A stretch of 57,763 bases of DNA from assembly GCA_937922045.1 (NCBI GenBank), contig CAKZXA010000009.1, positions 1 through 57,763 of the forward strand, given 5' to 3'. Origin of the DNA: an uncultured Acidimicrobiales bacterium. GTDB lineage: Bacteria; Actinomycetota; Acidimicrobiia; Acidimicrobiales; SZUA-35. Positions 9,712 to 11,752 of the stretch are shown in pieces (within the stretch, counting starts at the first letter, position 1; every line of letters starts with the position of its first letter). Below the pieces are notes generated by a model. The model ran no database searches. It was given only the letters and a program-made list of their open reading frames with translations, and had not been told where the DNA came from. The position numbers were made by a program, and so were the translations under genes.

Positions 9712-10587
9712 ATGCGACACCTCGGTTTGCTGCTCATCGCCCTGATCAGCACAGCATGTTTGGCAGCATGGTTAACGGCATGTTCAGCGGCGATATCGAG
9801 CGAAGCGACGCCTTCCACAACCATCATCGGGACCGCTCTATTCGAAGGCTCGGGGGACGACTTGTCGCCTGGCTTCACCGTCGAGGCCGTCTACCCTCAC
9901 GATCCCGCCGCCTACACCCAAGGTCTTGAGTTTCTCGACGAAGCGACACTGGTCGAGAGCACCGGTCTTCGAGGGAGTTCCACGCTACGCGTGGTCGATG
10001 CACCCAGTGGCGAAGCGTTGGAGGTGGCCGCGCTCCCCTCATCCCATTTCGGCGAAGGGGCCACGATCATCGAAAGCGGCGGCTCCACCAGCGTGTGGCA
10101 ACTCACCTGGCAGGAGGGCATCGCCACCCGCTGGTCGCTCGAACCCCTCGCCGCCACCGAACAAGTTTCCTACGACGGTGAGGGGTGGGGCTTGTGCGCG
10201 CAGGGTGGTCGGACGGCCGATCGCCTCGTGATGAGCGACGGATCGGCAACCCTGACCTTCCGCTCATCAGCCGACTTCTCGGTCCAGTCGACGATCGATG
10301 TCACCGATCGCGGCGTGCTCCTCACCAAGATCAACGAACTCGAATGTGTCGGCGGCGAGGTTTGGGCCAACGTCTACCAAACCAACTGGATCGTCGTGAT
10401 CGACACAACGACCGGCGAGGTCACGCGTCGTTATGATCTGTCCAGCCTTGTGCCCGAAACCTTCATCGACAGTACGGAGTTCGTCCTCAACGGAATCGCT
10501 TACCACGAACCGACCGACCGGTTTTGGGTCACCGGCAAACAATGGCCGGTGATGTACGAACTCAGCTTCGACCGAGAATCCGATTGA
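9712..10587 (+). CDS. Glutaminyl-peptide cyclotransferase-like lipoprotein (PF05096 type)
   Basis: A 291-residue protein of the plant/bacterial glutamine cyclotransferase family, five-bladed propellers that convert N-terminal Gln of peptides to pyroglutamate. The signal peptide ends in LTAC at Cys24, so the protein is likely a lipoprotein on the cell surface. The family opening YPHDPAAYTQGLEF is present (about 60-75). Other signatures are EGWGLC, LTKINELECVGGEVWANVY and LNGIAYHEPTDRFWVTGKQWP at the C-terminus, the usual end of the domain. The 3' end overlaps the convergent selenoprotein-like gene by 26 bp. The biological substrate is unknown. Confidence 0.85.
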   Translation: MRHLGLLLIALISTACLAAWLTACSAAISSEATPSTTIIGTALFEGSGDDLSPGFTVEAVYPHDPAAYTQGLEFLDEATLVESTGLRGSSTLRVVDAPSGEALEVAALPSSHFGEGATIIESGGSTSVWQLTWQEGIATRWSLEPLAATEQVSYDGEGWGLCAQGGRTADRLVMSDGSATLTFRSSADFSVQSTIDVTDRGVLLTKINELECVGGEVWANVYQTNWIVVIDTTTGEVTRRYDLSSLVPETFIDSTEFVLNGIAYHEPTDRFWVTGKQWPVMYELSFDRESD

Positions 10588-11179
10588 TCCAGGTCTCGTA
10601 GGCTTCCACGTCCTGGGCCCCGGGAATGGGGAGCACCTGGTTAAGGATCACGGTGGGGGCGGCGCCAACACCCATTTCCATCGCTTCGGTGTGCTCGGCT
10701 CGAACCTGGGTGGCCATCTCGGCGCCTTGTTCGACCAGGGCGCTAGCCAGCGCATCGCCATCTGCACCGATGGTGTTCGCAATCGCGATCTGCACCTCCG
10801 GGTTGGAGATATCTCGATTGTCGGTGAAATAGGCCTTCATCAAGCCCAGGTGAAAGGCGTGCCAGTGATCGGGCTGCTGGGCTTGGATCAGTTTGGCCGC
10901 CACATGGGGCTCCACCGAAGAGGCCGGTGGCGGATCTTGCGAGGCCCACACATTGAACTCGATCGACGACTCGAAGCTCGCCGGTCGAGCCCAAGACTCG
11001 GTGTAGGTCACGAACTTTTCAAGGCTACGCTCGGCCCGCTCCGGCCTGAGCAAAAAGGCCTTCCATTCAATCGTGATGGTGTCCCCCATCCGGTCGGCAA
11101 GCTCATCGAGGCGCACGGCCGCGACATAACACCAGGGTCAGAGAAAGTCTGACCAGACCGTCAGGGGGACAACCTTCAT
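10562..11179 (-). CDS. FrnE/DsbA-like thioredoxin-fold oxidoreductase, probable selenoprotein (in-frame TGA = Sec14)
   Basis: From ATG 11179 the frame reads MKVVPLTVWSDFL, then TGA (11138-11140), then PWCYVAAVRLDELA and on to 10562. FrnE/DsbA-family proteins have CPWCY here, so the TGA sits exactly at the first active-site cysteine, giving UPWC. The rest, 205 residues in all, is a normal FrnE-like DsbA domain ending with GVGAAPTVILNQVLPIPGAQ, which contains the cis-Pro region. GGAG lies 8 nt before the ATG. A hairpin of the bacterial SECIS kind begins 11 nt after the TGA. Without readthrough, translation could only begin at an internal GTG (11116), giving a protein without its active site. 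It follows a TIGR03086 gene by 15 bp, likely one operon. The alternative is a nonsense mutation. Sec machinery is not in this window. Confidence 0.75.
11104..11126 (-). promoter_or_regulatory. SECIS-like hairpin downstream of in-frame TGA
   Basis: In the mRNA, UGUCG pairs with CGAUG, there is a C-U mismatch, then GGC pairs with GCC around the loop CGUGC (11113-11117). The loop starts after 20 nt counted from the UGA and has G as its second base. Published models of bacterial SECIS elements ask for an apical loop roughly 16-37 nt after UGA with a G in the first two loop positions, so it fits. Two of the pairs are G-U wobbles. Folding was done by eye. Confidence 0.55.
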
Positions 11180-11194
11180 AACAAACGCTCCGCT

Positions 11195-11752
11195 CTAGAC
11201 CTGGCGACCGAGGAAGGCGGCCAGTTGATCGGCGGCGCAAGCATCGTCGGCGCACTGCTGCTCGGCACCGAAGGGGGCGCCTTCATCACCGCGGAACGAG
11301 TCCTGGATGTTGGCCCGTGCCGAGTCGAGTAGTGCTGATGCCAGCTCGGGGGCGAGATCGGTGCTTTGACCGGTGGCCTTGGCCAGGTCCCAACCATGGG
11401 TAAAGGTGTCGGTCGTCGCCAGACCCATCCATGCTGCGCCCGGCATATCGCCGAACGGGAGGCTGACCATACGGCCGAGGGCGCCTTCGGCCTCAAAGGC
11501 TGCGACCGAAGCTGCGGTCATCTTGTCGTAGGCGGCCAGGATGTCGCCCTGGGACCAATCGGTCTCATCGGCCGACGGTGCTTCACCGTTCATGGCGGAA
11601 GCAAAAAACGCTTGGCCACCGATGACGTGATTGACGAGTTCTTTAACGTTCCAGGATGCGCAGGGGGTCGACGCCTCCATTTGCTCGGCCTGAACGTTCT
11701 CAAGCACGGAGCGGGTGGCTGCGATCGCTTGTTGCAGCGGTTGTGTACTCAT
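11195..11752 (-). CDS. TIGR03086-family DinB-like metal-binding protein
   Basis: A 185-residue protein of the actinobacterial TIGR03086 / mycothiol-dependent maleylpyruvate isomerase-like group, with a four-helix DinB bundle. Seen: TPCASWNVKELVNHVIGGQAFF (about 29-50) with the first metal-ligand His, and the second motif TDTFTHGWDLAKATGQ (about 113-128) with the other His. AAAGGA precedes ATG 11752. It lies 15 bp upstream of the probable selenoprotein gene in the same direction, so both may serve thiol redox chemistry; that link is inference. The catalytic activity of this family is mostly unknown. Confidence 0.82.
   Translation of the reverse strand: MSTQPLQQAIAATRSVLENVQAEQMEASTPCASWNVKELVNHVIGGQAFFASAMNGEAPSADETDWSQGDILAAYDKMTAASVAAFEAEGALGRMVSLPFGDMPGAAWMGLATTDTFTHGWDLAKATGQSTDLAPELASALLDSARANIQDSFRGDEGAPFGAEQQCADDACAADQLAAFLGRQV

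Follow-up and report, generated by a model that had tools for sequence, protein, structure and literature searches.

DsbA-like selenoproteins with a UxxC motif have been in print since 2005, so the kind of protein treated here is already known. In the passages of the reports that we consulted, nine sequences of COG2761 were described from the Sargasso Sea in 2005 (PMC1088965) and 'DsbA 1' in GOS in 2008 (PMC2398784). Such proteins were recorded for 41 organisms in 2016 and return in reviews of 2022 and 2026, in the latter under the name 'DsbA-like protein form 1' (PMC13188914). By these descriptions, the published proteins likewise belong to PF01323, carry Sec as the first residue of UxxC and have a bacterial SECIS just downstream. 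Our comparison with this set is one of descriptions; the clade reported here comes from the assembled genomes of one order and is almost wholly Sec. No description of it was found in the consulted passages of the selenoprotein and SECIS literature (PMC13188914, PMC9312934, PMC1794560, PMC2398784, PMC5029168, PMC1088965, PMC12013277), and none by title in the literature on FrnE selenoprotein, Acidimicrobi selenocysteine and 2-hydroxychromene-2-carboxylate isomerase selenoprotein. What is added here is a clade almost wholly Sec across one order, whose SECIS covaries and which no NCBIfam model fits.

Among solved structures, FrnE of Deinococcus radiodurans (5co3, 5cnw) and SCO1869 of Streptomyces coelicolor (3gl5) share the fold of the product with TM-scores of 0.79-0.82 over the query, and their CPWCY motif aligns with UPWCY here. 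They differ in having Cys for Sec, longer chains (239-260 residues) and an identity of 19-20%. COG2761 is, we presume, the COG of FrnE. A similar fold is found in DsbM of Pseudomonas aeruginosa (5hfi; TM-score 0.74, 17% identity), a cytosolic disulfide reductase which we take to be without Sec. Regarding the recoding signal, the SECIS of E. coli fdhF has a GU in a small apical loop and a distance to the UGA similar to the one observed here. In contrast to fdhF, loop positions 1 and 4 of our hairpin pair by covariation and the fifth base, a C, is unpaired.

The gene and its predicted product

The window, which is the whole stretch of 57,763 nucleotides analysed here from an uncultured Acidimicrobiales bacterium, carries the FrnE/DsbA-like gene on its minus strand (10562-11179). 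The frame opens with an ATG (11177-11179, minus strand) behind a likely ribosome site, GGAG at 11188-11191, identified by eye 8 nt 5' of the start. It ends with a TGA at 10562-10564, and its sole interruption is the TGA at 11138-11140 (minus strand), which is followed by CCC TGG TGT TAT, that is PWCY. Reading through this codon gives 205 residues with zero other stops and an N-terminus of MKVVPLTVWSDFL-U-PWCY, in which the UGA would specify Sec14, the first residue of the U-P-W-C active site. The first-pass annotation had described an open frame with ATG, ribosome site and a single TGA ahead of PWCY, and had placed this TGA exactly at the first redox Cys to give U-x-x-C. Both statements were confirmed, and the codon is TGA in 59/59 close relatives. 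Cys17 (11129-11131, minus strand) is the second and presumably resolving residue of UxxC, and Pro175 (10655-10657, minus strand) is likely the cis-proline at the active site, judging from the DsbA fold; both columns are invariant (22/22).

The product matches PF01323 with 74.9 bits (cut-off 25.6). An AlphaFold model built on the 22 window and locus sequences, with Cys placed at the UGA, reached a mean pLDDT of 95.8. Together with Foldseek it points to a thioredoxin fold with a helical insertion and a CxxC-type site at the start of the first helix, which is predicted to begin at residue 15, directly behind the UGA residue. The active-site motif is invariant in all 22 sequences. FrnE of D. radiodurans was the best structural match, followed by SCO1869, and these are also the nearest solved sequences. 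By eye, no signal peptide was apparent. None of the NCBIfam models fits: the best one scored 27.7 bits (cut-off 92.75), and the family of thioredoxin-like (seleno)lipoproteins 27.1 bits (cut-off 190). Therefore, this conserved redox enzyme will probably be annotated incorrectly, with its active site missing.

Conservation of the UGA codon and the selenocysteine machinery

Relatives were searched in 397 genomes of the source's order, with up to seven candidates scored per genome, and 238 of these genomes gave at least one match at E 0.001. All 59 near-full-length matches of at least 146.5 bits, the window included, contain one TGA and are otherwise free of stops; the fetched DNA places this TGA on the same active-site codon in 59/59. 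Three partial matches were left out of this count, namely G324 C107 (residues 4-76, with the TGA), G356 C131 (residues 94-201, at a contig end) and G238 C39 (residues 153-205). A copy from elsewhere in the phylum (L117) has the same single TGA, which brings the close TGA copies to 60. Of 396 genomes sampled from the phylum, just three gave a match at E 1e-25, and two of these three (the window's own genome and G034) belong to the order. It is mainly the presence of one TGA at this codon in 59/59 near-full-length matches that excludes chance. The first-pass annotation had counted further disabling mutations in homologues as a sign against its reading; the aligned homologues keep the TGA without decay, none of the 59 having a further stop.

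Protein-level selection acts on both sides of the TGA, since third codon positions differ most before and after it. Over the 11 preceding codons third positions differ at 0.63, compared with 0.26 and 0.27 at first and second positions; over the 30 following codons the values are 0.57 compared with 0.31 and 0.20. Moreover, the terminal stop, taken as the first stop past the Sec codon, is itself TGA in 20/59 close copies including the window's gene, and UGA is thus not reassigned altogether.

The genome assembly comprises 4.88 Mb in 128 contigs and is 96.87% complete. A missing SelB or tRNA-Sec would have spoken against a selenoprotein, as had been noted beforehand; selA, selB, selC and selD were all found in this same genome, each above its curated cut-off. 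The tRNA-Sec gene scored 67.1 bits (gathering score 47) and has the anticodon UCA (tca by ARAGORN); it begins at base 2 of its contig (L001, G000:C89:2-93). Profile matches to selB (253.5 bits) and the adjoining selA (400.3 bits) lie on C103, and selD was matched with 359.9 bits. The selD gene (L019, G000:C14:85125-86042) has one in-frame TGA, in SHGAG-U-AAKLG, and is itself likely a selenoprotein gene; its hairpin reads GGCGCA-GGUUC-UGCGCC, with the loop beginning 32 nt past the selD TGA. An fdhA-like gene (L119, G000:C36:5689-7563) also has one TGA, in NRT-U-HAP, and a hairpin loop GGUCU. It scored 665.6 bits, 0.65 under the cut-off of 666.25, and the first 50 positions of the profile match apart, in a different open frame at C36:3025-3174.

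At E 1e-30, selA was matched in 54/59 genomes with the TGA gene and in 237/397 overall (Fisher P 7e-9, kinship ignored). Restricting the comparison to genomes with a completeness of at least 90% and a contamination of at most 5% (rounded) gives 33/33 and 141/259 (P 1.3e-8, kinship ignored). The five TGA genomes in which the selA match is absent (G170, G311, G327, G359, G376) are each just 72-83% complete.

No Cys version of at least 146 bits occurred among the matches scored in the order's 397 genomes searched here; a selA match at E 1e-30 is missing from 160 of them. This supports a reading that we put forward tentatively: in the order, the enzyme may work only with Sec14, with Cys being no substitute, and the gene may have been lost and not converted together with the Sec system. 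It is countered by three close Cys versions (L051-L053, TGC) in the same score range from another collection, two in Actinomycetota MAGs (order not given) and one in a record titled Deltaproteobacteria. If the tentative reading is true, the gene would contribute, along with fdhA and selD, to the retention of the Sec system in these lineages, and the enzyme's substrate would call for selenol chemistry. Since Cys versions are nearly absent, the family offers a natural test of what Sec does beyond Cys.

A second, distant FrnE-like set of the same order (L086-L096) also has TGA at this codon; these 11 copies were selected as TGA rows. Some of its members share a genome with a close-family copy (G209, G249). 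In the tree, the Cys versions L100, L104 and L108 are nested with copies of the distant Sec set, a possible Sec/Cys switch in the order. A single origin of Sec is not shown by this tree, on which the label needs four changes and the starred branches force three. Support is weak (86/68, 89/76) for the forks by which the Cys members L051-L054 come to lie among Sec ones, and the tree program warns of long branches (L054-L056, L081, L092). In viral contigs no relative was found by the six patterns used, one of which held the Cys form of the motif. Matches in plasmids comprise 259 records, none of which reaches 60% identity (28.5-29.9% among the matches listed).

The hairpin downstream of the UGA

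Counting the first base after the UGA as +1, the candidate SECIS hairpin extends from +13 to +33 (11105-11125, minus strand). It has a 5-nt apical loop, CGUGC (11113-11117, minus strand), 20 nt from the UGA, on a 7-bp stem interrupted by one C-U mismatch. Pairing joins positions 13-20 to 33-26 and, around the invariant GU (22-23), position 21 to 24, leaving C25 unpaired. Loop position 2 is G and position 3 is U in 58/58 distinct rows of the alignment. Loop positions 1 and 4 pair in 95% of rows and covary among relatives, compared with 24% pairing for positions 1 and 5.

Over the 58 distinct rows 92.5% of cells are paired, compared with 83.1% in shuffles, and the covariation score is 0.345 compared with 0.176; for each of these two values 0/500 shuffles were as high. 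Changes on both sides were counted in 44 cells (15.3 in shuffles), and structures slid by 1-3 columns gave covariation scores of 0.03-0.11. Two of the five measures lie within the shuffles (double-change pairs, 402/500 as high; further pair types, 72/500), and kinship can raise the others. RNAalifold recovered the six-pair core of the stem unasked, without 21:24. This last pair surpasses every other pair of columns in mutual information, a value perhaps raised by kinship, and is not dictated by the protein because it joins two synonymous third-codon positions. Conserved Val and Arg codons also fix G22, U23, C25 and G26. The 60-sequence alignment provides a covariation-based picture of one bacterial SECIS, with the GU dinucleotide held by a covarying pair.

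Each gene was also recoded synonymously 500 times with its own codon usage, and pairing as well as folding energy of +10 to +36 were compared with the recodings. Pairing reached P<0.05 in 50/60 close TGA copies, in 1/26 Cys copies and in 0/3 close Cys copies (L051-L053); for folding energy the counts were 38/60, 0/26 and 0/3. Among the 60 TGA copies, pairing falls short in ten and folding energy in 22, the window's own copy being among the 22: its pairing of 8/9 has a P of 0.006, and its folding energy of -8.6 kcal/mol (+10 to +36) is not significant against recoding (P 0.17). Kinship accounts for part of the contrast with the Cys copies, as the pairs tested derive from the close family, to which 23 of the 26 Cys copies are only distantly related. 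Likewise, the failure of the 11 distant TGA copies (0/11 for pairing, 1/11 for folding energy) is not evidence of a missing SECIS, because the pairs were defined on the close family. For these reasons, the recoding test speaks for the close family only. As judged by eye, L086-L090 seem to have a like hairpin, with the loop GGUCC, about 9 nt further downstream; L091 is without GU there.

In the consulted parts of its description, the bSECIS model has an apical loop of 3-9 nt and an upper stem of 4-16 bp (PMC13188914 Fig. 2 legend), a G at loop position 1, 2 or both, a spacing of 16-37 nt from UGA to loop, and a minimum free energy of -7.5 kcal/mol or lower (PMC13188914). The window's hairpin agrees with it as so described in loop size, stem size, early G, spacing (20 nt) and energy (-8.6). 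Several relatives' hairpins are weaker in energy, for example that of L024 (-2.1). The same source gives a loop N1-G-[G/U]-N-N2 with N1 and N2 paired as 'mostly' found, which in that passage means usual and not required (PMC13188914); read literally as positions 1 and 5, this pairing is absent from the window's hairpin. A hairpin with a GU-containing 5-nt loop at the distance expected of a bacterial SECIS had been part of the first-pass annotation. This holds, the core constraints of the published model fit, and the SECIS claim is stronger than it was put there because the stem covaries.

RNAfold keeps the hairpin when given +1 to +48 and prefers a competing fold (-11.6) for +10 to +51. In Rfam, no match to the hairpin was found; four weak matches lie far under their gathering scores. 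To call the selD and fdhA loops (GGUUC, GGUCU) built just like this one would be too strong: RNAfold pairs positions 1:5 in selD (G-GUU-C), and common to the three loops are just five nucleotides beginning N-G-U.

Proposed mechanism, alternatives and gene neighbourhood

We consider it close to certain that the gene encodes a cytosolic FrnE/DsbA-like thiol-disulfide oxidoreductase in which the UGA at 11138-11140 is recoded as Sec14 via SelB and the hairpin. The initial proposal of a probable selenoprotein with Sec in a FrnE/DsbA-like active site is supported by the relatives, the Sec machinery and the covarying hairpin. Comparison of sequences supports the conservation of the UGA, the covarying SECIS, the Sec machinery and the predicted fold. 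As to Sec insertion, cytosolic location, redox direction and substrate, we infer the following course. With the UGA in the ribosome, SelB carrying Sec-tRNA(UCA) would bind the downstream hairpin, and Sec would be inserted instead of termination. The selenol of U14 would act as the nucleophile on disulfides beside cis-Pro175, and the intermediate would be resolved by C17. The most likely reaction is cytosolic disulfide reduction or isomerisation, perhaps of disulfides with mycothiol.

A pseudogene or a sequencing error would mean that a Cys codon was mutated or misread to TGA without any function. One base separates TGA from TGC or TGT and the assembly is a draft of 128 contigs, but a recurrence at one codon in 59 assemblies is not expected of sequencing errors. 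The single TGA without another stop in 59/59 near-full-length close matches, the third-position excess on both sides of it and the covarying hairpin make this explanation exceedingly improbable. Hardly more credible is a UGA read as Cys or Trp by a changed code or tRNA. The Cys versions do have Cys at the homologous residue; however, UGA still stops this gene and 20/59 close copies, a tRNA-Sec with UCA as well as SelA, SelB and SelD are present, and the three close Cys copies do not show the hairpin. Some bacteria put Cys in place of Sec under selenium lack, and such a replacement may occur here as an effect of growth conditions. We give equally little credence to a true product that starts downstream at a GTG (184 aa ORF, 10562-11116), with the upstream part not in the same protein. 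A gene caller without recoding would probably pick this ORF, yet it lacks the first strand and the whole active site, and both the protein-level constraint in the 11 codons before the TGA and the motif invariant in 22/22 argue against such a start.

A different question is whether the selenoprotein performs glutathione- or mycothiol-S-transfer or HCCA-isomerase-like work and not disulfide exchange. The structural neighbours include HCCA isomerase and kappa-class glutathione transferase, and the protein encoded upstream belongs to a mycothiol-linked family. To our knowledge, neither of these two enzymes uses a CxxC site, whereas the UxxC motif is kept here, the best structural matches are disulfide oxidoreductases and the upstream gene is not found beside relatives. 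We therefore regard such activities as unlikely, though less so than the explanations above, and prefer disulfide exchange by a Sec-containing oxidoreductase.

The upstream gene, MDMPI_N/DinB-like and of TIGR03086, lies 15 nt off on the same strand (11195-11752, minus strand), and co-transcription with the selenoprotein gene is possible. Its membership in TIGR03086 and MDMPI_N hints at mycothiol, and an MshC-like match in the genome lies below its cut-off (418.1 compared with 485.1 bits); as the neighbour is not conserved, the two pointers to a mycothiol role are the window's own neighbour and this sub-cut-off match. Neighbours were searched at 73 loci with flanks of about 0.1 to 5 kb per side, comprising 62 close-family copies (three of them Cys) and the 11 distant TGA copies. 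No conserved partner gene was found in the 73 loci. The largest neighbour groups, in 14-16 loci each, are CrcB-like membrane, PNPOx-like, acyl-CoA-synthetase-like and seryl-tRNA-synthetase-like proteins (named by eye). No gene like that of TIGR03086 adjoins any other of the 73 loci, so the arrangement occurs in the window only; the sole distant TIGR03086-like match is at L065, 775 nt off on the other strand.

A scan of promoters and terminators gave nothing above chance. A weak terminator-like stem at 11149-11164 (minus strand), just 5' of the UGA, is the one found compared with 1.0 expected by chance. At its 3' end, the selenoprotein gene overlaps by 26 bases (10562-10587) with a converging glutamine cyclotransferase-like gene (9712-10587, plus strand).
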